In this document: positions 41,695 through 63,235 of the stretch, one piece after another
Numbering within the stretch: position 1 is the first letter of the stretch
Layout of the letters: every line of letters begins with the position of its first letter
NCBI RefSeq assembly: GCF_027497495.1
Contig: NZ_CP114205.1
Span: 124,001-188,000 of the forward strand
From: Streptomyces tubercidicus
Lineage (GTDB): Bacteria; Actinomycetota; Actinomycetes; Streptomycetales; Streptomycetaceae
Direction of reading: 5' to 3'
Length of the DNA: 64,000 bases
Position numbers and translations under genes: made by a program
The notes under the pieces: model-generated
What the model was told of the DNA's origin: nothing
Databases searched by the model: none
Seen by the model: only the letters and a program-made list of their open reading frames with translations

Positions 41695-44600
41695 TCAGAC
41701 GACCAGCTGGCTCGTGGTGCCGGTGGAGGGCGCGAAGCTGACATCGCCGTTGTAGTTGCCGGTGACCAAGTGGAGGCCCCTGGGAAGCGGGTTGAAGGTC
41801 GCGCTGGCCTGTCCGCCGACGAGAGGCACGGTCTGGGGGGTGCGTCCCGGGATGGCGAGGGTGACGGTCCCGGTGGGCGTACCCGTTCCGGGGGCGACGG
41901 GAACCACGGTCGCGGTGACCGTGACCCGGTCCCCCGTCCCCGAGGGGTTGGGTGTGGAGACCACGGTGGTGGAGGTCGCGGACCGGGTGACGGTCTGGGT
42001 GTCACTGCCGGTGGAGCCTGTGAAGCCGGCGTCCCCGCCATAGGTGGCCGTGACGGTGAACGGGCTTCCGGTGGTGGTCGTGTAGGCGTGGGTGACGGTC
42101 GCGACACCGCCGGAGAGGGTGCCGGTGGCGGTGCCGGTGCCGTCACCGAAGCTGAAGGTGACCGTACCGGTCGGCGTACCGGCCGGGGACGAGACGGTCG
42201 CCCGGATGGTCACCGTCCCACCGGACGCCGAGGGATCGGGAGTTGAGGTCACCGTAGTGGTGGACACGTTCTTGCTCAGCGTTTGGGTGTCGGTGCCGGT
42301 GGAGGCCGAGAAGGTGGCGTCCCCGTTGTAGGTGGCCGTGAGGGGGAACGGGCTGCCGGACCTGCTGGCGTAGGTGTGGGTGACGGTCGCGATGCCGCCG
42401 GAGAGCGTGGCGGTACCGGCGCTGGTGCCGTCACCGAAGCCGAAGGTGACCGTACCGGTGGGAGTACCGGCCCCCGGCACCGTCGAGGCAACCGTCGCGG
42501 TCAGCGTCACCGCCTGCCCGGCCACCGACGGATCCGGCGACGACACCAGCTCCGTGGTCGTCGCCACCTTCCCCACGGTCTGCGTGTCACTGCCACTCGA
42601 CGCGGTGAAGTTGCCGTCCCCGTTGTAGATCGCCGTGACGGCGTACGGGCTGACGGAGGCGCCGTTGAACGTATGCGTCACGGTCGCGGTGCCGTTGGAG
42701 AGAGGTTTGGTGGCGGCGCTGGTGCCGTCACCGAAGCTGAAGGTGACCGTACCGGTGGGAGTACCCGCCCCCGGCGCCACCGCGGAAACCGTCGCGGTCA
42801 GCGTCACCGCCTGCCCGGCCACCGACGGATCCGGCGACGACACCAGCTCCGTGGTCGTCGCCGCCCTGCCCACCGTCTGGCTGTCACTGCCGCTCGACGC
42901 GGTGAAGCCGCTGTCCCCGTTGTAGGTGGCGGTGAGGTGGAAGGGGCTGCCGGACCTGGTGGCATAGGTGTGGGTGACGGTCGCGATGCCGTCGGTGAGC
43001 GTTGTGGTGGTGGAACCGGTGCCGTCGCCGAAGGTGAAGGTGACCGTGCCGGTGGGGACGGCGGCACCAGGCGTGGCGGAGGCGACGGAGGCCGTGAGGG
43101 TGGTGGGCTGACCGACGACCGTGGGATCGGGCGAGGAGGCCACCGCCGTGGTCGTCGCCGCCTTGCCGACGCTCTGGGTGTCGTGCCCGCTGGAGGAGGT
43201 GAAGTTGGCATCGCCGCCATACGTCCCGGTGATGACGAACGGACTGCCCGAGGTGCCGCTGTAGGCATGCGTGACGACTGCCCGACCATCACTCACCGGC
43301 GCCGTCAACGTCGGACTGCCATCACCGAAATCAAACGTCACCGTCCCCGACGGCGCCCCCGCCCCCGGCGCAATCGACGCCACCGAAGCCGTCACCGTCG
43401 TCAACTGCCCCACCACCGTGGGATCAGGAGAAGACACCACCCCCGTCGACGTCGCCGCCTTACCCACCGTCTGGGTATCGCCCCCGCTGGAGGAGGTGAA
43501 GTTGGCATCGCCGCCATACGTCCCGGTGATGACGAACGGACTGCCCGACGTACCGCCGTACGCATGGGTCACGACCGCCAGACCATCACTCACCGGCGCC
43601 GTCAACGTCGGACTGCCATCACCGAAATCAAACGTCACCGTCCCCGACGGCGCCCCCGCCCCCGGCGCAACCGACGCCACCGAAGCCGTCACCGTCGTCA
43701 ACTGCCCCACCACCGTGGGATCAGGAGAAGACACCACCGCCGTCGACGTCGCCGCCCTACCCACCGTCTGGCTGTCGCCCCCGCTCGACGGCAGGAAGCC
43801 GGCGTCCCCGTCATAGTCCGCGGTCACCTGGTAGGGGCCGCCCGCGCTCGTGTAGGTGTGCGTGATCCTGGCGACGCCGTCGGAGAGCGAGGTCAGGGTG
43901 GGCGGTGTGCCGTCCCCGAAGGTGAAGGTGACCGCGCCGGTCGGCACCCCTGCTCCCGGTGCCGTCGGTGCCACGGTCGCGGTGAGGGTCACCGGCTGGC
44001 CGACCACCGACGGGTCCGGCGTGGCCGTCACCGTGGTCAGTGTCGACGCCGGAGCGACCGTCTGGCTGTCCGTGCCCGAGGAGGAGCTGAAGTTGGCGTC
44101 TCCGCTGTAGCCCGCGGTCACGGTGTACGGGCTGTCGGCCACGGTGTTGTAGACGTGGGTGACGCCGGCGATCCCCCCGGAGAGCGGTGCCGTGACGGCC
44201 GCCGTTCCATCGCCGAAGGTGAAGGTGACCGTGCCGGTGGGGACACCGGCGCCGGGCGGGGTCGGGGCCACGGTCGCGGTGAAGGACACCGGCTGGCCCG
44301 TCACCGCGGGGTCCGGGGCGGAGCTCACGGTCGTCGACGTGGTGGCGGCGCTGACCGCCACCGTGTGGACTCCGGTGGCGGTGGCGGAGGTGAAGTCGTC
44401 GTCACCGCTGTAGTCGGCGGTGACCGTGTAGGGGCTGCCCGACGTGCCCACGTAGGCGTGTGTCACGGTCGCCACCTCGGAGGTGACCGGTGCGGTGACG
44501 GGTGCGGTGCCGTCACCGAAATCGAAGGTGACGGTCCCGGTGGGGGCGCCCGCGCCCGGGGGGACTGCGGAGACCAGGGCGGTGAAGGTGACCTGCTGTC

Positions 44601-47600
44601 CGGCCACGGACGGATCCGGGGAGGAGAACAGGGAGATGGTGGAGGTTGCCTGGCCGACGGTCTGGCTCCGGGTGCCGGTGGAGGGGCTGAAGTCGGCGTC
44701 CCCGCCGTAGGCGGCCGTAATGGTGTACGGGCCGGGGGCGGTGCCGGTCCAGGTGTGCGAGACGGTTGCCACACCGGCGGTGACCGTGGCGGTGACGGAG
44801 GGGGTGCCGTCGCCGAAGTCGAAGGTGACCGTACCGGTCGGGGTACCGGCCCCCGGCGCGGCCGCGGAGACCGTCGCGGTGATGTCCACCGGCTGGCCCG
44901 TCACCGAGGGGTCCGGCGAGGAGGCCACTTCGGTGGTGGTCGCGGCCGGGGTGACGGTCTGGGTGCCGGTGCCGGTGGAGGGGCTGAAGTCGGCGTCCCC
45001 GCTGTAGGCGGCCGTGAGGGCGTAGGGGCTGCCGGAGGTGCTCGCCCAGGCGTGGGAGACGGTCGCGGTGCCGTCCGTCACGGGTGCGGTGACGGGCGCG
45101 GTGCCGTCGCCGAAGTCGAAGGTGACCGTACCGGTCGGGGTACCGGCCCCCGGCGCGGCCGCGGAGACCGTCGCGGTGATGTCCACCGGCTGGCCCGTCG
45201 CCGAGGGATCCGGCAGCGAGCTGACCGTCGTCGCCGACAACGACGGCTGCACACCGTGGTTTCGGGTCCCCACGGAGGCGGTGAAGCGGTCGTCGCCGTC
45301 GTAGGTGGCGCGGACCGTGTACGGGCTGCCCGTGGCACTCGTATAGGCGTGGACGGCGGTCGCCACACCACCGGCCGCGGCGACGGTGACCGGCGCGGTG
45401 CCGTCGCCGAAGTCGAAGGTCACCGTCCCGGTCGGCGCGCCGGCCTCCACGGCGTCGGATGTCACCCTCGCGAGGAACATCACCGGCTGGCCCGTGACCG
45501 AGGGGTCCGGCTGTCCGCTGACGGTGGTGCTGGTCGTGGCCGGGGCAACGGTGTGGGTGTCGGTTCCGGTGGAGGGGCTGAAGTCGGCGTCCCCGTTGTA
45601 GGCGGCCGTGACGGTGTAGGGGCTGCCGGAGGTGCCGGGCCAGGCGTGGGTGACGGTGGCGGTGCCGTCCGTCAGGGGTGCGGTGAGGGGCGGGGTGCCG
45701 TCGCCGAAGTCGAAGAGGACGGTGCCGGTGGGGGTGCCTGCTCCTGGTGCGATGGTGGAGACGGTCGCGGTGATGTCCACCGGCCGGCCCGTGATCGAGG
45801 GGTCCGGCAGCCCGGTGACAGTGGTGCTGGTCGCGGCCCGGGCGACGGTCTGCGTGCCGGTAGCGGTGGACGGGAGGAAGCCGCTGTCCCCGCTGTAGGC
45901 GGCCGTGACGCTGTAGGGACTGCCGGACGCGCCGGTCCAGGTGTGGGTCGTCGTGGCCACCCCGGAGGTGACCGGAACCGTGGTGGGTGACGTGCCGTCA
46001 CCGAAGTCGAAGGTGACCGTGCCGGTCGGTGTGCCGTCGCCTGGCGCGGCGGCCGAGAGGGTCGCGGTGACGGTCACCGGCTGGCCGGACACCGCCGGTT
46101 CGGGCGACGAGGTGAGCAGCGTCGTGGACGCGGCCTGGCCGACGGCCTGTGTGGTGGTGCCGCTGGAGGCGGTGGAGTCGGTGTCCCCGCCGTAGGTGGC
46201 GGTGATGGTGTACGGGCTGCCTAACGGGCCGGTGTAGGCGTGCTCGGCGGTCGCCACCCCGTCGGTGACCGGCTGCGCGACCGGGTCCGTACCGTCGCCG
46301 AAGTCGAAGATCACCGTGCCGGTCGGCGCGCCGCTGCCCGGTTCCGCCGCGGTGACGGTCGCCGTGAAGGTGACCGGCTGACCGACGACGGACGGGTCCG
46401 GCGCGGAGCTCACCGTCGTGGTCGTCGCGTCCGGCAGGACCGACTGCGGGGACGTGGCCACCGAGTTGGTGAAGTCGTCGCTGCCGCTGTAGGTGGCGGT
46501 GATCGTGTACGGGCTGCTGAGGCTGCCGGTGTAGGCGTGGGTGACCGTGGCGGCCCCGCCGGCCAGGGGCACCGTGGCGGGAGTGGTGTCATCGCCGAAG
46601 TCGATGGTGACCGTACCGGTCGGGGTACCGGCACCCGGCGGGACGGGTGCGACGGTCGCGGTGATGGTCACCGGCTGTCCCACGACCGCGGGTTCGGGGC
46701 CGGAGGTCACCTCGGTGGTGGTCGCGGCCGGGTGCAGGGTCTGGGAGCCGGTGGCCGTGGCAGGGCTGAAGTCGTCGTCACCGCTGTAGGTGGCCGAGAA
46801 GGTGTACGGGCTGCCGACGGCGGTGGTGTAGGCATGGGTGACCGTCACCGTGCCGCCCACCGCGGTGGCGGTGACGGTCGGGGTGCCGTCGCCGAAGTCG
46901 AAGGTGATCGTCCCGGTCGGGGTGCCCGCCGCCGGGGCCTCCGCCGCGAGGTTCGCGGTGAGGGTCACCGGCTGGCCGACCGCGGAGGGGTCCTTCGACG
47001 AGAAGACGGTGAAGGTCACCGCCGCCGCGTTCACGGTCTGGGTGTCGGTGTCCGTCGACGGCAGGAAGCTCGCCTCGCCGTGGTAGGTGGCGGTGACCGG
47101 ATACGGGCTGCCGGAGGTGTGCGGGTAGGCGTGGACGGCGATCGCCGTGCCGTCGCTGAGGGGCGCCCGGACGGCCGGGGTGCCGTCGCCGAAGTCGAAG
47201 GTGACCGACCCGGTCGGGGTGCCGGCATCCGCGTCCGTCGAGGTGACGGTAGCGGTGAAGGTGACGTCCTGGCCGGTCAGGGACGGGTCGGGAGCGGAGT
47301 CCACGGTTGTCGAGGTGGCGGCCTGCTCCACCGTATGGGTATCGAGACCGGCCGAGCCGGCGAAGTTCCCGTCACCGCTGTAGACCGCGGTGATGGTGTG
47401 GGGGGCGGCGGCCGCGGTGTAGGTGTGGGTGGCCGTGGCCGTAGCGCCCGTGAGCGGGGAGGTCACGGCCGGGGTGCCGTCGCCGAACTCGAAGGTCACC
47501 GTGCCGGTCGGGGTGCCCGCTGCGGGCGGAACCGCCACGACGGTCGCGCTGACGGTCACCGGCTCACCGACGACGGACGGGTCCGGCGCGGAGCTCACCG

Positions 47601-50600
47601 TTGTCGAGGTGGCCGAGACGCTGGCCTCCACGCCCTGGGCGGCCGTCCCGGTGGAGGCGCCGAAGTCGCCGTCACCGCTGTAGGCCGCGGTGACGGGGTA
47701 GGGACTGCCGGCGGTGCTGGTGTAGGTGTGCGCCACCATGGCCACGCCGTGCGAAACCGGTGCGGTCGCGGGCGCGCTGCCGTCGCCGAAGTCGAAGGTG
47801 ACCGTCCCGGCCGGCGTACCGGCGCCCGGTGGCACCGGAACCACCCGCGCGATCAGCGTCACGCTCTCGCCCACCGCCGAGGGCACCCGCGAGGAGGTCA
47901 CCGTGGTGGTGGTCTCGGCCGGGTCGACGGCGTGGACGATGGTGTCCTCGGACGCGGCGTAGTTGGCGTCACCGAGATAGACCGCAGTGATCGTGTAGGG
48001 GCTGCCGGACACGCTGGTGTAGGGGTGGGTGACCGTTACCGTGCCGTCCACGAGCTGGGCGGTGAGGACGGGGGTGCCGTCGCCGAAGTCGAAGCTGACC
48101 GCCCCGGTCGGGATACCCGAGGCGGGCGCGGTGGGGGCCACGGTGACGGTCACCGACTCGCCGGTCACGGACGGGTCGGGTGCGGCGGTGACCGTGGTGA
48201 CGGTCGCGGCCTCCTCGACGCTGTGCGTACCGATGCCGACGGACGCGGTGAAGTTGATGTCCCCGCTGTAGGTGACGGTGACCGTGAACGGGCTGAGGGG
48301 CGCGGTGGTGTAGGCGTGGGCGAGCGCGGCGGTGCCGTCGGTGAGGGGTGCGGTGACGGGCGCGGTGCCGTCGCCGAAGTCGAAGGTGACCGACCCGGTC
48401 GGGGTGCCCGCGGCCGGTGAGCCTGCCGCGACGGTCGCGGTGAAGGTGACCGTCTCGCCGGTGACCGAGGGGGCCGGAGTGGACGTCACCGTCGTCGTGG
48501 GCACCGCTGGGGCGACCAGCTGACTGTCCGTCCCCGCCGAGGGGTTGAAGTTGTCATCGCCGCTGTAGGCGGCGGCGACCGTGTACGGGCTCTCCGCCAC
48601 CTCCGGATTGGCGTGGGTGACCTTTGCCGTACCGCCCTCGACGGGTGCCGTGACGGGCGGGGTGCCGTCGCCGAACGCGAAGGTCACGGTGCCCGTGGGC
48701 GCTCCGGCCGCCGGGGCCTCGGGGGAGATCTGCGCCACGAAGGTCGTCAACTGCCCCACTGTGGAGGGGTCCGGTGCGGAGTTCACGCTGGTGGTGGTGT
48801 CGGCCGGCTGCACGGTCTGGGTGTCGGTGCCGAGGGAGGTCGTGAAGTCCGCGTCGCCGTTGTAGGTGGCGGTGACCGGGTACGGCAGTTCGGCCGCGTC
48901 GGTGTAGGTGTGGGTGATTTCGGCGGCGCCGTCGGTGAGGGACGCGGTGCCGGGTGGGGCGCCGTCGCCGAAGTCGAAGGTGACCGTACCGGTCGGGGTA
49001 CCGGCACCGGGCGCGAGCGCGCTGACCGTCACGCCGAAGGTCACCGGCTCCCCCACCGTCGACGGATCCGGCGTGGACACCACGGCGAGCGCGGTGCCGG
49101 CCGGCTGGACGCTCTGGGTGTCGGTACCGGAGGAGGTGGTGAAGTCCGCGTCACCGTCGTAAGTGGCGGTGACCGTATAGGGGTTGTCCTCCGCGGCGGT
49201 GTAGACGTGGCCGGTGGTGGCGGTGCCGTCCGTGAGCGGTGCGGTGACGGGCGCGCTGCCGTCACCGAAGTCGAACGTGACCGTCCCGGTCGGCGTGCCC
49301 GCGCCGGGCGCGAGCGCGCTGACCGTCGCACCGAACGTCACCGGCTCCCCCACCGTCGACGGATCCGGCGCGGAGACCACCGTCGTCGTCGACCCGCTCG
49401 GTCCCACCGACTGGCTGCCGGTCCCCGTGGAGGGTTCGAGGTTTCCGTTGCCTTGATAGGTGGCGGTGACCGTATAGGGGCTGGCGGCCGTACCGGCGTA
49501 GGCATGGCTGATGGCAGCCGTGCCGTCGGTGAGCGGTACGTCGACGGGCGGGGTGCCGTCACCGAAGTCGAAGGTGACCGTGCCCGTCGGTACGGCCACT
49601 CCGGGCGGGACGGCGGCAACGGTCGCGGTCACGGTCACGGGCTGCCCGGCAACGGAGGGCTGGGGCGCCAGGTCCACCGCGGTGGTCGTCGCCGCCTGCT
49701 CCACGGTCTGGCTGTCCGTCCCCGTGGAAGCCGTGAAGTTGTCGTCGCCGCTGTAGGTGGCGGTGACCGGGTACGGCAGCTCGGCGGCGTCCGGATAGGC
49801 GTGGGTCACGGTCGCGGAGCCGCCCGCCATCGGCATGGTGACGGGTGCGGTGCCGTCGCCGAAGTCGAAGGTCACCGTGCCGGTCGGCGCACCGGCTCCC
49901 GGCGGGGTCGGCGCGACCCGCGCGACGAAGGTGACCGGCTGCCCCACCTGCGACGGATCGGGCCCGGACGTCACGGTGGTGGTGGTCGACGCCGCTTCGA
50001 TGACCTGGGTGTCCGTCCCGGTGGCGGGCAGGAAGTAGGGGTCGCCGCCGTAGTTGACGGTGACGGCGTAGGGGGTGTCCGACGGGCCGGTGTAGGCGTG
50101 CTCGACGGTGGCCGTGCCGTCCGTGAGGGAGGCCGTCACCGGCGCCGTTCCGTCGCCGAAGTCGAAGAGGACGGTGCCGGACGGTGTACCCGTCGTGGAC
50201 GGGACCCCCTCCAGGGTTGCGGTGAAGGTCACCGGCTGGCCGACGGGGGCCGGATCCGGCGCCGAGGTGACGGTCACCACCGAGGGCGCCTTGTAGTCGA
50301 AGCCCCCGGGGAGCGTCACACTGCCCCCGGGCGTGGTCAGCACGATATCGGCGGGACCGGGGACGCCCGGCGGCGTCACCACGACGAGCAGGCTGTCGGA
50401 GAACGCGCGGAAGGAACTGACGGGGACACCGCCGATGGTGACGCCGGTGACACGGGCGAGGCCACTGCCGGTCAGCACGAGAGTGGTGCCGCCCGCGATC
50501 GGCCCGGTGTCCGGGCTGACGCCGGTGACATGAGCCACCGTCGCATAGGTGTAGAGCAGTCGGTTGCTCACTCCGCCGAGGGTGGTGACGTAGACGGGGA

Positions 50601-51318
50601 CGGTGCCGGGACCCGTGGTGGGCGGCACCGTGACACTGATCTCCCGGTCGGAGAGCACGGTCGGGAAGGCGACGGCGTCACCGAAATACACCCGCAGCGA
50701 GGTGGACAGGTTGGCGCCGGTGAGGATGACGGTGTTGCCACCGCCGATCGGGCCGGTGGCCGGGGCGATGCCCGCCAGGCTGGGCCAGGGGAGGTAGAAG
50801 AAGTAGCCGACCCTGGCGGATCCGCCAGGGGTGGTGACCGTGATCGGGACGGACCCCTGGCCGGAGGGCGTCACCGCGACGATGGTCCGGTCGTCGAGGA
50901 CGGCGAAGCTCGCCGCCGGGCGCGGACCGAAGTTCACGGTTGTGGCGCGGGTGAAGTTGCGCCCGATGATGGTCACCAGGGTGCCGCCGCCGGAGGAGCC
51001 CTGGTCGGGGAAGACACCGGAGAACTGGTTGCGCTCCGCCAACAGCCCGGGACGGGCCGCCACGGTATCGAGCCGCCCCCAACTCGGCGTGGAGGCAAGC
51101 CGGTTCCGCACCCCCGCGAGGGCGCCCAGCAGAGTGGCTGCGCCGTCGACCACAGTGCGGACGACCGGCCCCCCGCCGACACCATCCCGTACCGGCAGCG
51201 GTGCCGGCGCGCCGAGTAGGGGGACGACCCGGTGGGACAGCGGGTCGACGAGGGCGATGCCGTTCCCCTGACAGTCGGTCAGGATGGCGAGCCCATACGG
51301 GCTTTCCGGAGTCAGCAT
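41695..51318 (-). CDS. Giant IPT/TIG and Ig-like repeat protein (3207 residues)
   Basis: One uninterrupted gene. Residues 1-95 are unlike the rest, with YGLAILTDCQGNGIALVDPL recalling a beta-propeller blade. Three IPT/TIG domains follow at about 99-168, 181-256 and 264-340 (for example SGVFPDQGSSGGGTLVTIIG). From about residue 347 to the end there are 29 tandem Ig-like (Big_3_5-type) repeats of 95-99 residues, 28 of which have the FGDG core (PTGTVTFDFGDGTAPVTAPL). I find no signal peptide, no C-terminal anchor and no membrane segment, although such repeats are usually surface-exposed adhesins. The ATG at 51318 has a G-rich sequence upstream. It is monocistronic. The function is unknown. Confidence 0.9.
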   Translation of the reverse strand: MLTPESPYGLAILTDCQGNGIALVDPLSHRVVPLLGAPAPLPVRDGVGGGPVVRTVVDGAATLLGALAGVRNRLASTPSWGRLDTVAARPGLLAERNQFSGVFPDQGSSGGGTLVTIIGRNFTRATTVNFGPRPAASFAVLDDRTIVAVTPSGQGSVPITVTTPGGSARVGYFFYLPWPSLAGIAPATGPIGGGNTVILTGANLSTSLRVYFGDAVAFPTVLSDREISVTVPPTTGPGTVPVYVTTLGGVSNRLLYTYATVAHVTGVSPDTGPIAGGTTLVLTGSGLARVTGVTIGGVPVSSFRAFSDSLLVVVTPPGVPGPADIVLTTPGGSVTLPGGFDYKAPSVVTVTSAPDPAPVGQPVTFTATLEGVPSTTGTPSGTVLFDFGDGTAPVTASLTDGTATVEHAYTGPSDTPYAVTVNYGGDPYFLPATGTDTQVIEAASTTTTVTSGPDPSQVGQPVTFVARVAPTPPGAGAPTGTVTFDFGDGTAPVTMPMAGGSATVTHAYPDAAELPYPVTATYSGDDNFTASTGTDSQTVEQAATTTAVDLAPQPSVAGQPVTVTATVAAVPPGVAVPTGTVTFDFGDGTPPVDVPLTDGTAAISHAYAGTAASPYTVTATYQGNGNLEPSTGTGSQSVGPSGSTTTVVSAPDPSTVGEPVTFGATVSALAPGAGTPTGTVTFDFGDGSAPVTAPLTDGTATTGHVYTAAEDNPYTVTATYDGDADFTTSSGTDTQSVQPAGTALAVVSTPDPSTVGEPVTFGVTVSALAPGAGTPTGTVTFDFGDGAPPGTASLTDGAAEITHTYTDAAELPYPVTATYNGDADFTTSLGTDTQTVQPADTTTSVNSAPDPSTVGQLTTFVAQISPEAPAAGAPTGTVTFAFGDGTPPVTAPVEGGTAKVTHANPEVAESPYTVAAAYSGDDNFNPSAGTDSQLVAPAVPTTTVTSTPAPSVTGETVTFTATVAAGSPAAGTPTGSVTFDFGDGTAPVTAPLTDGTAALAHAYTTAPLSPFTVTVTYSGDINFTASVGIGTHSVEEAATVTTVTAAPDPSVTGESVTVTVAPTAPASGIPTGAVSFDFGDGTPVLTAQLVDGTVTVTHPYTSVSGSPYTITAVYLGDANYAASEDTIVHAVDPAETTTTVTSSRVPSAVGESVTLIARVVPVPPGAGTPAGTVTFDFGDGSAPATAPVSHGVAMVAHTYTSTAGSPYPVTAAYSGDGDFGASTGTAAQGVEASVSATSTTVSSAPDPSVVGEPVTVSATVVAVPPAAGTPTGTVTFEFGDGTPAVTSPLTGATATATHTYTAAAAPHTITAVYSGDGNFAGSAGLDTHTVEQAATSTTVDSAPDPSLTGQDVTFTATVTSTDADAGTPTGSVTFDFGDGTPAVRAPLSDGTAIAVHAYPHTSGSPYPVTATYHGEASFLPSTDTDTQTVNAAAVTFTVFSSKDPSAVGQPVTLTANLAAEAPAAGTPTGTITFDFGDGTPTVTATAVGGTVTVTHAYTTAVGSPYTFSATYSGDDDFSPATATGSQTLHPAATTTEVTSGPEPAVVGQPVTITATVAPVPPGAGTPTGTVTIDFGDDTTPATVPLAGGAATVTHAYTGSLSSPYTITATYSGSDDFTNSVATSPQSVLPDATTTTVSSAPDPSVVGQPVTFTATVTAAEPGSGAPTGTVIFDFGDGTDPVAQPVTDGVATAEHAYTGPLGSPYTITATYGGDTDSTASSGTTTQAVGQAASTTLLTSSPEPAVSGQPVTVTATLSAAAPGDGTPTGTVTFDFGDGTSPTTVPVTSGVATTTHTWTGASGSPYSVTAAYSGDSGFLPSTATGTQTVARAATSTTVTGLPDPSITGRPVDITATVSTIAPGAGTPTGTVLFDFGDGTPPLTAPLTDGTATVTHAWPGTSGSPYTVTAAYNGDADFSPSTGTDTHTVAPATTSTTVSGQPDPSVTGQPVMFLARVTSDAVEAGAPTGTVTFDFGDGTAPVTVAAAGGVATAVHAYTSATGSPYTVRATYDGDDRFTASVGTRNHGVQPSLSATTVSSLPDPSATGQPVDITATVSAAAPGAGTPTGTVTFDFGDGTAPVTAPVTDGTATVSHAWASTSGSPYALTAAYSGDADFSPSTGTGTQTVTPAATTTEVASSPDPSVTGQPVDITATVSAAAPGAGTPTGTVTFDFGDGTPSVTATVTAGVATVSHTWTGTAPGPYTITAAYGGDADFSPSTGTRSQTVGQATSTISLFSSPDPSVAGQQVTFTALVSAVPPGAGAPTGTVTFDFGDGTAPVTAPVTSEVATVTHAYVGTSGSPYTVTADYSGDDDFTSATATGVHTVAVSAATTSTTVSSAPDPAVTGQPVSFTATVAPTPPGAGVPTGTVTFTFGDGTAAVTAPLSGGIAGVTHVYNTVADSPYTVTAGYSGDANFSSSSGTDSQTVAPASTLTTVTATPDPSVVGQPVTLTATVAPTAPGAGVPTGAVTFTFGDGTPPTLTSLSDGVARITHTYTSAGGPYQVTADYDGDAGFLPSSGGDSQTVGRAATSTAVVSSPDPTVVGQLTTVTASVASVAPGAGAPSGTVTFDFGDGSPTLTAPVSDGLAVVTHAYGGTSGSPFVITGTYGGDANFTSSSGGDTQTVGKAATSTGVVSSPDPTVVGQLTTVTASVASIAPGAGAPSGTVTFDFGDGSPTLTAPVSDGRAVVTHAYSGTSGSPFVITGTYGGDANFTSSSGHDTQSVGKAATTTAVASSPDPTVVGQPTTLTASVASATPGAAVPTGTVTFTFGDGTGSTTTTLTDGIATVTHTYATRSGSPFHLTATYNGDSGFTASSGSDSQTVGRAATTTELVSSPDPSVAGQAVTLTATVSAVAPGAGTPTGTVTFSFGDGTSAATKPLSNGTATVTHTFNGASVSPYAVTAIYNGDGNFTASSGSDTQTVGKVATTTELVSSPDPSVAGQAVTLTATVASTVPGAGTPTGTVTFGFGDGTSAGTATLSGGIATVTHTYASRSGSPFPLTATYNGDATFSASTGTDTQTLSKNVSTTTVTSTPDPSASGGTVTIRATVSSPAGTPTGTVTFSFGDGTGTATGTLSGGVATVTHAYTTTTGSPFTVTATYGGDAGFTGSTGSDTQTVTRSATSTTVVSTPNPSGTGDRVTVTATVVPVAPGTGTPTGTVTLAIPGRTPQTVPLVGGQASATFNPLPRGLHLVTGNYNGDVSFAPSTGTTSQLVV
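41698..50280 (-). repeat. About 29 tandem repeats of roughly 290 bp inside the giant gene
   Basis: The unit encodes one Ig-like domain. Copies differ by substitution but share PSVxGQPVT, PTGTVTFxFGDGT, THAY and YxGDxxFxxSTGTDTQTV segments. Two neighbouring copies near 43200-43790 are almost identical at the nucleotide level with a period of 297 bp, which points to a recent duplication or gene conversion. Confidence 0.9.
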
Positions 51319-58226: not shown

Positions 58227-58886
58227 ATGAGGACGATCGATCCGGCGAAACACGCAGCGCGGCGTCAGCACATCGTGCACGCCGCGTCCGAGCTGTTTGC
58301 CACGCAGGGGTTCGAGCGCACCACTACGGCGCAGATCTGCAAGGCGGCCGGGATGAGTTCGGGGAACGTGTTCCACTACTTCCCCAACAAGCGCGCGATC
58401 TTCATCGCCCTCCTCCAGGACGACAAGGACGCCAAGACCGAGCGGCTGGCGCGGGCGGCGACCGAAGCCGACCCATGGACCGCCCTCCTGGACGTCGTGC
58501 AGTTCCTGGCCGCACCCGCCGCGGAACCTCTGGCCCCGCCGCTGGTGATGGAGGCCATGCTCCAGGCACACCGCGACCCGGAACTCGCGGAACTCCTGAG
58601 CCAGGACAGCACCGACGAGCACACCGTGATCGCGGAACTGCTCACCAAGGCCGCGGCGGCCGGGCAGATCGACCCCGGCCTCGATCCGGACAACACCGCC
58701 TCGTGGGTCATGGCCCTCATCGCCTCGATGTACACCAGCGCGGCCACCGAGGCATCCTTCGACCCGGCCGGGCAGCTGCCCACCCTGCTCCTCATCTTGC
58801 AACGGTTCCTGCGCGGCGAGCCACGTGAGCACCGGAGGAGCGCCGCCATGGAAGAGCAACGCACCGGCGGTAGCGCAGTGACCTGA
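58227..58886 (+). CDS. TetR family transcriptional regulator
   Basis: A 219-residue regulator. The TetR DNA-binding region at residues 8-58 reads ARRQHIVHAASELFATQGFE and TTTAQICKAAGMSSGNVFHYFPNKR. The C-terminal ligand domain (residues 70-205) is not assignable to a drug class. It lies beside a YqeB-like gene on the other strand and a small lipoprotein gene on the same strand; either may be a target. Its message appears leaderless. Confidence 0.87.
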   Translation: MRTIDPAKHAARRQHIVHAASELFATQGFERTTTAQICKAAGMSSGNVFHYFPNKRAIFIALLQDDKDAKTERLARAATEADPWTALLDVVQFLAAPAAEPLAPPLVMEAMLQAHRDPELAELLSQDSTDEHTVIAELLTKAAAAGQIDPGLDPDNTASWVMALIASMYTSAATEASFDPAGQLPTLLLILQRFLRGEPREHRRSAAMEEQRTGGSAVT

Positions 58887-58942
58887 CTTCCCCCGCTTCC
58901 GGCCCCAACTCCCCCTCCCCCCACAGAAAGACGACCCCACCC

Positions 58943-59245
58943 GTGAAGAAGAGTGCGATAGCCGGCGGCTGCGTCCTCGGTCTCTTCGTGATCGCCTGCG
59001 CCTACAAGGGCAGCGCCACCACCACCGATCCGCTGAGCCTCGCCGAATACAGGAAGATCGAGGCCGGCAGCAGCGAGAAGACCCTGTTCGCCTACACCAA
59101 TACGTGTCAGCAGAACAGCGAGTCGGAGCGCGCCGACGACTACCCGACCACGTGGACGTGTTACGGCGCCGAAGGGGGCAGCAGCGCCGTGTTCTTCTAC
59201 TCCGAGGGCGTGATGTTCAGCAAGTCGCAGACCGGGCTGGCATGA
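58943..59245 (+). CDS. Small lipoprotein-like exported protein
   Basis: A 100-residue protein with a short basic N-terminus, hydrophobic stretch, and VIAC at residues 16-19 as a plausible lipobox. The mature part (LAEYRKIEAGSSEKTLFAYT, two further Cys, ending SKSQTGLA) is reminiscent of the small SmpA/BLIP-type fold in which a Y-x-x-I-x-x-G helix leads the domain, but the similarity is weak. The GTG at 58943 has AAAG-rich sequence upstream. It follows the TetR gene by 56 bases. Confidence 0.6.
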   Translation: MKKSAIAGGCVLGLFVIACAYKGSATTTDPLSLAEYRKIEAGSSEKTLFAYTNTCQQNSESERADDYPTTWTCYGAEGGSSAVFFYSEGVMFSKSQTGLA

Positions 59246-59673
59246 GGGCAGTGCACCGGCTACGCGAGCGCCCCTTCTTCACCGTGCGCAACAGCCGTAT
59301 TCCCTAAGGGAGTTGGGCAGCGGCGGAGCCGACGGACCGCCACGAGCGGCGCCATAAGCCGGCCTTTAGGGAACGCAAAGCACCGTTATGAGGGTAAATC
59401 GCGTCGTAAATCGGGTGTCAGGCGATGTCACACGACAGGTCCGGATGACCCGGGACGCGCCTCCGCGAGGTTACTACGCGTGGTAGTGGCCCTGAAATGC
59501 CGGAAAATCGCCCATGCATTCGGGAATGCGCACTCAGTGCGGCGAGCGTTTCCGGCCGCACGCGGGCCGGGAGCCGGTTGTGCGCGGCGGGCTTCGACCA
59601 GACGATTCAGGCTCCTGCGTGCCGGTCGGCCGTGCGTCGGCCGAGCGGCATGCCCGTAGGCGAGGAGGGCCTG
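59246..59673. promoter_or_regulatory. Upstream region of the encapsulin operon
   Basis: About 430 bases without a gene. It contains a direct repeat of cgtaaatcg-type sequence near 59394-59420 (gtaaatcgc and gtaaatcgg) and a tgtcacacgaca stretch near 59427. Either could be part of the promoter or operator of the encapsulin genes; none is a clear known site. Confidence 0.35.
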
Positions 59674-61056
59674 ATGAACGACCAGACTAGTCTCAGCCCG
59701 GATGCAGCACGGCAGCTCGCGACCACTACCAAGACCAGCCCCCAGATGCGCGGCATCACCCCGCGCTATCTGCTGCGGGCCCTGCCATGGGTGGATGTGG
59801 AATCCGGTGTCTTCCGCGTCAACCGCCGCCGGACCTACGTCCTCGGCGACGACCGCATCAGCGTCCACGCCGACGGCGGTTCGCCCCGTGTGATCCCGGG
59901 CGACCTGCGGGAGTTGCCGTATCTCCGGGATGCCGACGACGCCCTGCTCGCCGAACTCGCGGGCTCCTTCACGGAAGTCAGCTTCGAGGCCGGCCAGATG
60001 CTGGCGCAGGACGGCGATGCGCACGACAAGCTGTGGGTGATCGCCCAGGGCCGCGCCGAGAAGCGGGTGAGCGGCCGCTACGGCGAGGACGCGGTGCTCG
60101 AAGTGATCGGTGACGGCCAGTACTTCGACCTGGACGCATGGACCCGTTCCGAGCCGCTGCCCTACCGCGTCCGGGCGCTCACCCCCGGTGTGGCGCTGTG
60201 TGTCGAGCGCAGTGTGCTGGAGGGGCTGTGTGAACGCGAAACGGCGGTGCGGGGAGCGATGGACGCCTACCTCGCGGCGGACGGTGTGCTGCCGGGCGCC
60301 GAGGTGCCGGTCGATCTCAGCTCCGGGCACATCGGCGAACCCGACCTTCCCGCGACGTACGTCGACTACGAGGACACGCCCCGCGAGTACCACATGAGCC
60401 TCGCCCAGACCGTGTTGCGGGTGCACACCAGGGTCTCCGACCTCTACAACGGGCCCATCGACCAGATCCGGGCGCAGTCCAACCTCACCGCGCACGCACT
60501 GCGCGAGCGGCAGGAGGCCGCGCTGCTCAACCACCCGGAGTTCGGCCTCTTCAACAATGTGGCCCCCGGGCAGCGGGTCCAGGCCCGCACCGGTTCCCCG
60601 ACCCCCGACGATCTGGACGAGCTGCTGACCCGGGTCTGGAAGCAGCCCGGCTACTTCCTCGCGCACCCCAGGGCCATCGCCGCGTTCGGCCGGGAGTGTA
60701 CGCGTCGGGGGGTGCCCCCGGTCATCGACACCCGGTTCGGCAGCCCGCTGCTGAGCTGGCGCGGTGTCCCGCTGCTCCCGTCCGACAAGGTGCGGTTCTC
60801 CGGCAGTGCGGGCGTCGGCACCACCGAGATCCTGCTGATGCGGGTGGGCGAGGCCGAGCAGGGTGTGGTGGGTCTGCGTCCCGCGAAGGTCGAGGACGAG
60901 GTGGAGCCCGGTCTGTCGATGCGGAACATGGGCGTCGACCAGAAGGGCATCACGTCGTACCTGATGACGGCGTACTTCAATACGGCGGTACTGGTAGAGG
61001 ACGCGGTCGCCGTGCTCCAGAACGTCGAGGTCTCCAACTACCATGACTACTCCTGA
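59674..61056 (+). CDS. Family 2B encapsulin nanocompartment shell protein
   Basis: A 460-residue shell protein. The N-terminal arm and first HK97 segment (residues 1-80) are followed by an inserted cyclic-nucleotide-binding-like domain at about 82-200 (LLAELAGSFTEVSFEAGQML, then GDGQYFDLDAW), the mark of family 2B. The rest of the HK97 fold runs from about 220 to 460 (YEDTPREYHMSLAQTVLRVH, GITSYLMTAYFNTAVLVEDA). Many copies should assemble into an icosahedral protein shell that encloses the cargo enzyme encoded next. The inserted domain lacks an obvious canonical phosphate-binding cassette, so cNMP binding is uncertain. The ATG has GGAGG upstream. It overlaps the cargo gene by 14 bases. Confidence 0.93.
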   Translation: MNDQTSLSPDAARQLATTTKTSPQMRGITPRYLLRALPWVDVESGVFRVNRRRTYVLGDDRISVHADGGSPRVIPGDLRELPYLRDADDALLAELAGSFTEVSFEAGQMLAQDGDAHDKLWVIAQGRAEKRVSGRYGEDAVLEVIGDGQYFDLDAWTRSEPLPYRVRALTPGVALCVERSVLEGLCERETAVRGAMDAYLAADGVLPGAEVPVDLSSGHIGEPDLPATYVDYEDTPREYHMSLAQTVLRVHTRVSDLYNGPIDQIRAQSNLTAHALRERQEAALLNHPEFGLFNNVAPGQRVQARTGSPTPDDLDELLTRVWKQPGYFLAHPRAIAAFGRECTRRGVPPVIDTRFGSPLLSWRGVPLLPSDKVRFSGSAGVGTTEILLMRVGEAEQGVVGLRPAKVEDEVEPGLSMRNMGVDQKGITSYLMTAYFNTAVLVEDAVAVLQNVEVSNYHDYS

Positions 61057-62422
61057 CGTCGTCCGGGGTCTGTGGCCGGGGGCGCCGGCTCCGAACCTCC
61101 TCGGTGACGGTCTGCTGTCGCCCGATCCGGCCACGACCCCGGCCACGGAAGCGGACATTCCGGCCGCCCACCCCGCACAGTTCACCGGCCTCCCCGGCCA
61201 AACAGCCGCCTTCTCACCGGAGTTGGCGCGCCGCGATGTCCCGATCCTGCACCGGACGGTGAACGGGCACCCACTGGTCTGGCTGGACAACGGGGCCACC
61301 ACACAGAAGCCACGCCAGGTGATCGAGGCACTGGCCGGCTTCTACGGATCCGCCAACTCCAATATCCACCGCGGTGCGCACACCATGGCCCGGGAGGCCA
61401 CCGAGGCGTACGAGGCGGGCCGGTCGGCGGTCGCCCAGTTCCTGGGGGCGCCGTCACCGGACGACATCGTCTTCGTACGCGGCACGACCGAGGCCATCAA
61501 CCTCGTCGCGCAGAGCTGGGGCCGGGCGAACCTCGGCCCCGGGGACGACATCCTGGTGCCGGTGCTGGAGCACCATTCGAATATCGTGCCGTGGCAGTTG
61601 ATCGCCCAGCAGACCCGGGCCCGGGTGGTACCCGTACCACTGCAGCCCAACGGGCAGATCGACCTCACCGCGTACGACGATCTGCTCTCCATGCGCACCC
61701 AGCTCGTCGCGCTCAGCCAGGCGTCGAATGTGCTGGGAACCGTCCCGCCCGTACGCGAGATGACCGCCCTCGCCCACCGCTACGGGGCCAAGGTCCTGGT
61801 GGACGGGGCCCAGGCGGTGGCGCACTTCCCGGTCGATGTGCAGGACCTGGACGCCGACTTCTATGTGTTCTCCGGGCACAAGCTGTTCGCCCCCACGGGC
61901 ATCGGCGCGCTGTACGCGAAGCCGGAGATCCTGCGGGACATGGCGCCGTGGCAGGGCGGCGGCAACATGATCGAGTCGGTCGACTTCTCCCGTACCACCT
62001 ATGCCCCCGTCCCTCACCTCCTGGAGGCCGGTACCGGACATATCTCCGGCGTGGTCGGTCTGCTGGCCGCGCTGAACTGGCTGACCTCCTTCGACCGCGA
62101 CGCCATCACCGCATACGAGACCTCACTGATGGCGTACGCACAGCAAGCCCTGGCCACGGTTCCGGGGTTGGAACTACTGGGCTCCGCGCCCGACCGCATC
62201 GCCGTACTGACCTTCACCCTCGCCGGCCATGACCCGTCGGAGATCGCCGCCTGGCTGGACCGTGACGGCATCGCCATCCGGGCCGGGCACCACTGCGCCC
62301 AGCCGGCGCTGGCCCACTACGGGCTGGCGAGCGCGGCCCGCGCCTCGCTCGCGCTCTACAACACATCCGAGGAGGTGGACAAGCTGGTGGCTTCCCTGCA
62401 GCAGCTGCAGCAGGCCGCCTGA
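61043..62422 (+). CDS. Cysteine desulfurase, encapsulin cargo (SufS-like)
   Basis: A 459-residue PLP enzyme. The Schiff-base Lys280 is in FSGHKLFAPTG, the PLP-contact His in EHHSNIVPW near 177, and the catalytic Cys418 in RAGHHCAQP. It moves sulfur from cysteine to an enzyme persulfide. Residues 1-65 are an extra, Pro/Ala-rich, probably disordered stretch not found in housekeeping SufS; in family 2 encapsulins such an extension packs the desulfurase into the shell. The gene overlaps the shell gene by 14 bases. No sufC, sufD or scaffold gene is nearby, so it is not a Fe-S assembly operon. Confidence 0.93.
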   Translation: MTTPDVVRGLWPGAPAPNLLGDGLLSPDPATTPATEADIPAAHPAQFTGLPGQTAAFSPELARRDVPILHRTVNGHPLVWLDNGATTQKPRQVIEALAGFYGSANSNIHRGAHTMAREATEAYEAGRSAVAQFLGAPSPDDIVFVRGTTEAINLVAQSWGRANLGPGDDILVPVLEHHSNIVPWQLIAQQTRARVVPVPLQPNGQIDLTAYDDLLSMRTQLVALSQASNVLGTVPPVREMTALAHRYGAKVLVDGAQAVAHFPVDVQDLDADFYVFSGHKLFAPTGIGALYAKPEILRDMAPWQGGGNMIESVDFSRTTYAPVPHLLEAGTGHISGVVGLLAALNWLTSFDRDAITAYETSLMAYAQQALATVPGLELLGSAPDRIAVLTFTLAGHDPSEIAAWLDRDGIAIRAGHHCAQPALAHYGLASAARASLALYNTSEEVDKLVASLQQLQQAA

Positions 62423-62575
62423 CGCTCCGTCCGTCCGATGTCGCCAACCGGGTCCGCACGGTCGGCGACATCGGCGTACGTGATGCCGTTCCGGGCGGCC
62501 TGTGGATAACCGCGGTCTGACCTCGTGCGCGGTTCATACTGAGAGACAGGCCGCGCAGGAGGGGGAACGGCAGGC

Positions 62576-63235
62576 ATGACAGGGTCACCGGACGAGGTAC
62601 AGCCACCGCATCGGATCGAGGATCTTTCGTCCGCCCGGTGGATCGAGGAGAGCCTCGGCGGGTTCGACAGTGGGGTCCATGCCCTGCTGCCGTCGGGGTT
62701 CGAGACCTATGTGCGGTTGCTGCATCCCAGCGAACCGTCGGACGGCCGGTTCGAGCGGTGGGCGGAGGTGGCGCAGCGGTCGGGCCGCGCTCTGCACCCG
62801 CTGGTGCGTTTCGAGGACGTGGCCGGCCCGGATGACGAACCGCCGTGGCGGGGTTCGCTGCCCGAGCCCGTGCTGGCGGCGCTGTATCCGGTGCTGGCAG
62901 CGGAAACCGGCACTCCGCGGCAGTGTCTCTTCGGCCTCTGGGAAGGGTGGGGCTGGTGCGATGACAACGGGCCGATAGTGCAGTTGAGCGGACGCGCCTA
63001 CGTACTGTACGAGGGACCGGTCGAGGCGGCGATGGCCACCGGAGACCGGAGCGCGGGGGTCTTCTTTCCGCAGTCGCCGAATCTGTGGTGGCCACGGGAC
63101 CGTGCCTGGTGCGTCGCCACGGATGTGGATCTCGACTCCACCTATATCGGTGGGTCAGCGCGGCTGGCGGAGCGACTGGCGGACGCGCCGGGCATCGAGG
63201 TGGTTCCGGCGGCACTCGACGACCGGCTCGGTTGA
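62576..63235 (+). CDS. Hypothetical protein, 219 residues
   Basis: A soluble acidic protein starting with SSARWIEESLGGFDSGVHAL and containing FGLWEGWGWCDD and QSPNLWWPRDRAWCVATDVD. The Trp-rich middle is typical of a group of Streptomyces proteins of unknown function. The ATG has AGGAGG thirteen bases upstream. It is 150 bases after the desulfurase, with its own likely promoter, so I would not count it as part of the encapsulin operon without evidence. Confidence 0.7.
   Translation: MTGSPDEVQPPHRIEDLSSARWIEESLGGFDSGVHALLPSGFETYVRLLHPSEPSDGRFERWAEVAQRSGRALHPLVRFEDVAGPDDEPPWRGSLPEPVLAALYPVLAAETGTPRQCLFGLWEGWGWCDDNGPIVQLSGRAYVLYEGPVEAAMATGDRSAGVFFPQSPNLWWPRDRAWCVATDVDLDSTYIGGSARLAERLADAPGIEVVPAALDDRLG

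Follow-up and report, generated by a model that had tools for sequence, protein, structure and literature searches.

In Streptomyces tubercidicus, positions 59674..62422 of the window (the whole 64,000-nucleotide stretch analyzed here) hold a gene pair of a family 2B encapsulin shell and a SufS-type cysteine desulfurase. The two open reading frames (59674-61056 and 61043-62422) lie on the + strand and overlap by 14 bases. We propose that the desulfurase is the likely cargo of the shell, that the fixed overlap couples its translation to shell translation, and that loading likely proceeds without the N-terminal domain used by family 2A; we assign this reading a probability of roughly 0.5. The case for a cargo enzyme draws on family membership, an overlap conserved in 57/57 loci, a CAT codon bias, agreeing trees, an exclusive neighbor, the undetected 2A domain, and a changed residue at the position of SrpI F262.

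This kind of locus is already known, as 199 operons combining a family 2B shell with a cysteine desulfurase are counted in the accessible portion of PMC8346489. Those operons resemble the present pair in shell type, partner enzyme, and the disordered N-terminus of the partner; that same portion makes no mention of the fixed start codon within the shell tail, of the two species that have lost the extension, or of the F262 change. Neither the fixed overlap nor an eroded tag is named in the titles or abstract openings of the papers on encapsulins and cysteine desulfurases listed by full-text searches of mostly open-access literature. The features discussed below are:

59550..59557, +, box TTCCGGCC upstream of the promoter, belonging to the conserved three-part pattern
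59578..59606, +, TTGTGC, 17 nt spacer and GACGAT, likely promoter of the pair
59617..59653, +, hairpin-forming inverted repeat (16-nt arms, 88% complementary), likely in the 5' leader
59662..59668, +, GAGGAGG, ribosome-binding-site-like, ahead of the shell start codon
59674..61056, +, family 2B encapsulin shell (460 aa), HK97 fold with inserted CNB-like domain
59905..60273, +, inserted CNB-like domain (about residues 78-200), PF00027 match, CNB structures aligned
60109..60183, +, non-canonical cassette region of the insert (residues 146-170) with a conserved form of its own
60925..60927, +, Asn418 codon, equivalent to F262 in S. elongatus SrpI
61039..61050, +, shell YHDY tail; the desulfurase ATG spans its His-Asp codons
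61043..61056, +, overlap ATGACTACTCCTGA, exactly 14 nt in all loci counted
61043..62422, +, SufS-type cysteine desulfurase (459 aa, TIGR01979), likely cargo
61043..61234, +, N-terminal extension of the desulfurase (residues 1-64), length-variable among relatives

Relatives and genomic context

A protein-guided scan of genome contigs returned 70 loci, comprising 60 of the Streptomyces type (69-93% identity in the best segment; 61 with the window) and 10 more distant ones. Overlap counts cover 57 of the 61, leaving out L014 and L061, which end before the desulfurase, and L036 and L064, which are broken; counts of shell positions cover 59 loci (the 57 plus L014 and L061).

The desulfurase was the only recurrent neighbor of the shell, the next commonest gene family occurring in 9/61 loci. 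With S. elongatus genes as queries, cysE was found near the pair in 0/61 loci (controls 3/3 found) and cysK in 1/61, as a weak match (control 1/1); the rhodanese query missed its two positive controls, so that this part of the sulfur-gene test had no power. Among the annotated 2A plasmid loci, that of S. elongatus has cysE, cysK, and rhodanese next to the pair, those of Azospirillum, Variovorax, and Aliarcobacter carry some of these genes, and the Methylosinus 2A locus has none of them in the stretch viewed. At L049, a weak match to cysK and a further, remote match to desulfurases adjoin the pair.

Upstream of the shell, a three-part pattern (TTYMRGMC, TTGYGG, 17 or 18 nt, GACGATC) was matched with ≤3 mismatches of 21 in 50/59 loci, compared with 1/295 shuffled sequences, which are the only control for a motif derived from the same sequences that were scored. 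The window's copy (59550-59607) has 2 mismatches. We suggest that this pattern would act as the promoter of the pair, and that its upstream box may be an activator site or an upstream promoter element. SigR-type promoters, also looked for upstream of the shell, appeared in 2/59 loci. Some near relatives (e.g. L007, L008, L010, L013, L020, and L026) have a similar GCATGC-flanked repeat at the hairpin's position, a feature that most loci lack; Rfam models gave nothing at gathering scores over 58800-62700. Overall, the pair is a two-gene unit with a conserved upstream pattern and without any other conserved neighbor.

Two further features of the window were noted. A predicted 100-aa protein (58943-59245, + strand) without a Pfam match lies between a TetR-type gene and the shell, and its family is present in 3/61 loci. 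On the - strand, a 3207-aa frame (41695-51318) matches the bacterial Ig-like domain Big_3_5 29 times and TIG 3 times; it probably encodes a giant cell-surface repeat protein.

The shell and its inserted domain

The product of 59674-61056 contains an HK97/SrpI-like shell domain, interrupted in the E-loop by a CNB-like insert placed as in the S. griseus structure 9bhu. Both the HK97-type family 2B assignment of the first-pass annotation and the CNB-like domain it placed at residues 82-200 were borne out, the latter by PF00027 (50.2 bits, residues 102-188). The shell also passes NF041162 (397.5 against a cut-off of 380); despite this score, the insert excludes a family 2A identity. A two-component 2B system at this locus was likewise rejected, as there is a single PF19307 gene and the genome's adjacent pair sits at 1.036 Mb. 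The insert and overall fold agree with those of the 2B shells of S. griseus (9bhu) and S. lydicus (9bje, 9bix), whose systems have other cargo types (xylulose kinase in S. lydicus, according to the available part of PMC12407261). By contrast, SrpI of Synechococcus elongatus (2A; 6x8m, PMC8049743) has no CNB insert. The window's shell protein is presumed to assemble into a closed shell with the desulfurase inside.

Three further 2B shells are encoded in the genome. Two form the adjacent pair at 1.036 Mb (L005), next to genes of the FGGY-kinase, xylose-isomerase-like, and ROK types; the third, at 5.262 Mb (L006), stands singly next to a terpene synthase and a methyltransferase. Together with the window pair, three 2B cargo types occur in one genome. 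Some Streptomyces seem to carry two desulfurase-type shells (P0015/P0025, P0017/P0026, and P0030/P0033, each two lying on contigs of equal length), perhaps as two-component desulfurase systems.

The phosphate-binding cassette of cyclic-nucleotide domains, which we take to be marked by a Glu and an Arg and located in the insert from sequence anchors, had been described as degenerate, and it is: the Glu (residues 152-153) and the Arg (162-163) are absent in 59/59 shells. The region is nonetheless conserved in a form of its own, with F151, V166, T170, G172, A174, and L175 invariant in the 59 shells and W156 present in 57. Conservation across these shells averaged 77% in the insert against 89% in the shell body, and within the insert 81% in the cassette region against 76% in the remainder. 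In the portions of PMC12407261 at hand, a 2B insert is reported not to bind cyclic nucleotides, and the inserts of solved 2B shells sit above the two-fold pores. An altered CNB domain that answers nucleosides rather than cAMP is described for trypanosome PKA in the accessible text of PMC6440977 and PMC10959531; its regulatory subunit (6h4g) belongs to an unrelated system and offers a precedent for a non-cyclic CNB ligand. An insert over the two-fold pores would likely respond to some ligand that is not a cyclic nucleotide, or to no ligand at all, and its conserved non-canonical cassette directs ligand searches away from cAMP and cGMP.

In SrpI, F262 lies near the 2A cargo density (PMC8049743, accessible portion). 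The equivalent residue, Asn418 in the window, is Asn in 57 and Asp in 2 of the 59 Streptomyces-type shells and never aromatic; Ala occupies it in Kitasatospora, Pro in S. clavuligerus, Tyr in M. bullatum, and Leu in Schlesneria. All seven 2A shells compared have Phe, but so do 17/18 2B shells without a desulfurase gene, which makes the loss of F262 a correlation and no proof of changed loading. The position of SrpI Y273 is retained (Tyr 56, His 2, and Phe 1 of 59).

A start codon fixed inside the shell gene

The 14-base overlap stated by the first-pass annotation recurs exactly in 57/57 loci with both genes intact. The desulfurase ATG starts 14 nt before the end of the shell stop codon and spans CAT GAC of the YHDYS tail. 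Where the tail has its His (56 of 59 shells), the codon is CAT in 56/56, against 10/455 His codons elsewhere in the same shells, indicating that the desulfurase ATG is under selection. The desulfurase N-terminus reads MT[TI]P[DE] in 55/57 loci because the shell-tail codons are read there in another frame. Beyond the start codon, we found no sign of a hidden element in the shell 3' end, since codon conservation over its last 12 codons was unexceptional (0.168 against a mean of 0.119; 68/264 windows equal or higher).

The same 14 nt occur in four more Streptomycetaceae loci (L077, L078, L121, and L124) and in the proteobacterium Methylobacterium bullatum (L079, 2B shell); in S. clavuligerus (L078) both peptides have changed and the register is retained. 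In family 2A, the ATG lies within the same tail codons in 6/9 loci. The overlap is 14 nt in Azospirillum (L083 and L123, not independent, as their shells are one protein accession), 17 nt in Aliarcobacter (L086), and 26 nt, with the start inferred from the frame, in Paraburkholderia (L087), Burkholderia (L122), and a same-genus genome (L119). The greater length in these last three follows from a shell extending four codons further; L119 is assigned to family 2A on its complete shell without an insert. The ATG falls outside the tail codons in the 2A loci of S. elongatus (L082), Methylosinus (L084), and Variovorax (L085) and in four Schlesneria 2B loci. Some 2A loci show a gap in place of the overlap (234 nt between the S. 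elongatus SrpI and CyD genes). Unlike the window shell, none of the 18 compared 2B shells without a desulfurase gene has a YHDY-like tail.

The desulfurase and its N-terminal extension

The first-pass annotation's SufS-like enzyme beside the shell was confirmed by TIGR01979 (522.3 bits against a cut-off of 475.1). It contains SGHK (residues 277-280) and GHHC (415-418), present in 55/57 and 57/57 relatives, respectively, which we take to be the PLP lysine and the catalytic cysteine.

The extension was less consistent with a family 2 cargo extension, as first supposed. Residues 1-53 are predicted to be disordered (pLDDT under 50), and across the 57 loci the extensions consist mostly of Ala, Pro, Thr, and Gly. 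Between 15 and 260 residues precede the core motif (median 62, n = 57), with >16 in 55/57 loci and ≤30 in 13/57. A tail ranging from almost nothing to ~250 residues implies that packing would likely have to work another way. The first-pass annotation had named a free desulfurase with a dispensable extension as evidence against its reading, and the second half of this holds in evolution: the extension is gone in S. mashuensis (L024, 16 residues before the core) and S. alanosinicus (L031, 15), where shell, enzyme, and overlap are intact. Their tails are about as long as that of the genome's free SufS, if the GTG start of the latter is right. Seven very short desulfurases (P0187, P0194, P0199, P0214, P0225, P0229, and P0234) were not counted as tail-less; the P0214 core equals the P0188 core from an inner Met, so such short entries may be start-site annotations.

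For 2A CyD relatives, two loading motifs typified by LARLANEFFS and AASPYYFLDG are published at the N-terminus (PMC8049743, in the portion accessible), and S. elongatus CyD carries both in a loading domain of 225 residues, unlike the window enzyme. Pattern searches found neither motif in any of the 57 extensions, the window's included, with moderate power (in controls, motif 1 was recovered in 4/7 and motif 2 in 3/7 2A enzymes). Motif 1 was also found in M. bullatum and motif 2 in Kitasatospora (PRYWLP). RYWL is common to the Kitasatospora (L077) and S. clavuligerus (L078) extensions and may be a remnant of AASPYYFLDG. NF041166, the 2A cargo model, scored 640.6 bits against a cut-off of 800 and matched the window enzyme only over profile positions 213-623. 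We rejected a 2A cargo desulfurase identity on this score and the missing motifs. Matches began at profile positions 212-225 in L031, L024, and L060, with short or long tails alike, at 139 in L051, and at 18 in M. bullatum, whose enzyme is above the cut-off. The terpene-cyclase-type motif GPTGL was absent from all 57 extensions; GL[GPS] occurred in 18/57 (6.8 in shuffles) and TGL in 8/57 (above shuffles), counts that come from relatives sharing ancestry. Judged from these comparisons, no conserved loading domain is formed by the 65 residues of the extension.

Ancestry of the shell and of the enzyme

In an unrooted shell tree (50 rows, insert removed, including the window and 15 of the 60 Streptomyces-type loci), the desulfurase-adjoining shells (2A and 2B, 32 rows) split from 18 other 2B shells with 100/100 support, and six 2A shells form one side of a branch, also with 100/100. 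Whether the partner is a desulfurase, and not the insert alone, determines how shell bodies group. In the tree of enzyme cores (36 rows), 24 from encapsulin loci separate from 12 other desulfurases at 95/77, below the tool's mark for a firm branch. Both trees place S. clavuligerus, Kitasatospora, and Streptomyces in the same order. Among the residues fixed in Streptomyces-type enzymes, Trp80, Arg146-Gly147, Trp303-Gln304, Phe315, and Gln420 occur in 5 or 6 of six 2A-type cores and in 0/11 free SufS enzymes. The genome's housekeeping SufS adjoins its sole NifU_N (SufU-like) match, at 6.305 Mb. The trees and residues indicate shared descent among the desulfurase-associated shells and likewise among their enzymes.

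Cargo selection and alternative explanations

Under the proposed mechanism, ribosomes finishing the shell would start the enzyme, which would be made where shell protein is made. Entry would depend on contacts made by the enzyme's folded core or by a few residues at its start, not on a long tag, and once inside the enzyme would take sulfur from cysteine, as reported for 2A systems. The compartment may store or gate sulfur. Retention of >16 residues before the core in 55/57 loci counts against this tag-free reading, as a motif-less tail may matter. The disordered extension could still be a degenerate loading signal, a low-complexity Pro/Ala/Thr tail making weak contacts at many points and drifting, with tail-less species having lost packing or using another route. 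Disordered N-terminal domains load 2A cargo and are proposed to do so in 2B (accessible portions of PMC8049743 and PMC8346489), and the GL[GPS] excess, though found among kin, would fit. We consider such a signal rather unlikely: the 2A motifs are missing throughout, 13 loci have short tails, and two with practically none keep shell, ATG, and enzyme. It is improbable that the desulfurase is no cargo at all, being co-made and working outside, for instance by passing sulfur to another protein, with the shell holding something else or nothing. The undetected loading domain and the replaced 2A contact residue would suit that reading; exclusive adjacency, the fixed overlap, matching trees, and the placement of enzyme cores beside 2A cargo and apart from free SufS (95/77) oppose it.

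The overlap itself may be a passive relic, the YHDY codons having once offered an ATG from which the start never moved, without coupling. This possibility, which we hold to be unlikely though worth keeping in view, gains from the unexceptional codon conservation of the shell 3' end and from the SD-like GAGG lying 12 nt before the desulfurase ATG, as SD-to-start spacing is usually shorter. The forced CAT codons argue for a maintained start instead, and the gapped 2A loci indicate that the arrangement can be lost. A +1 frameshift at the shell stop (TCC TGA C), yielding some shell-desulfurase fusion with the extension as linker, seems very improbable. The enzyme is indeed encoded in the +1 frame, its extension resembles a linker, and C follows the stop in 40/57 loci, but the last codon (TCC 48, GCC 8, AGC 1) is explicable by common codon use, and the stop sits 12 nt further on in three 2A loci.

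In descriptions of encapsulins, a targeting peptide or loading domain selects the cargo; here the presumed tag has eroded. We tentatively raise a further idea, itself rather doubtful: Streptomyces desulfurase encapsulins may have given up the targeting tag, with cargo chosen by a start codon inside the shell gene, so that shared ribosomes would make both proteins at one site and the two would meet by folded surfaces. The YHDY start would then be an old device, predating the split of 2A and 2B, that took over after the loading domain decayed. Across the loci, which form a natural series and include two tail-less members, shell, enzyme, ATG position, and upstream pattern stay fixed while the presumed tag erodes, and this tail series offers ready test proteins for cargo choice in family 2B.
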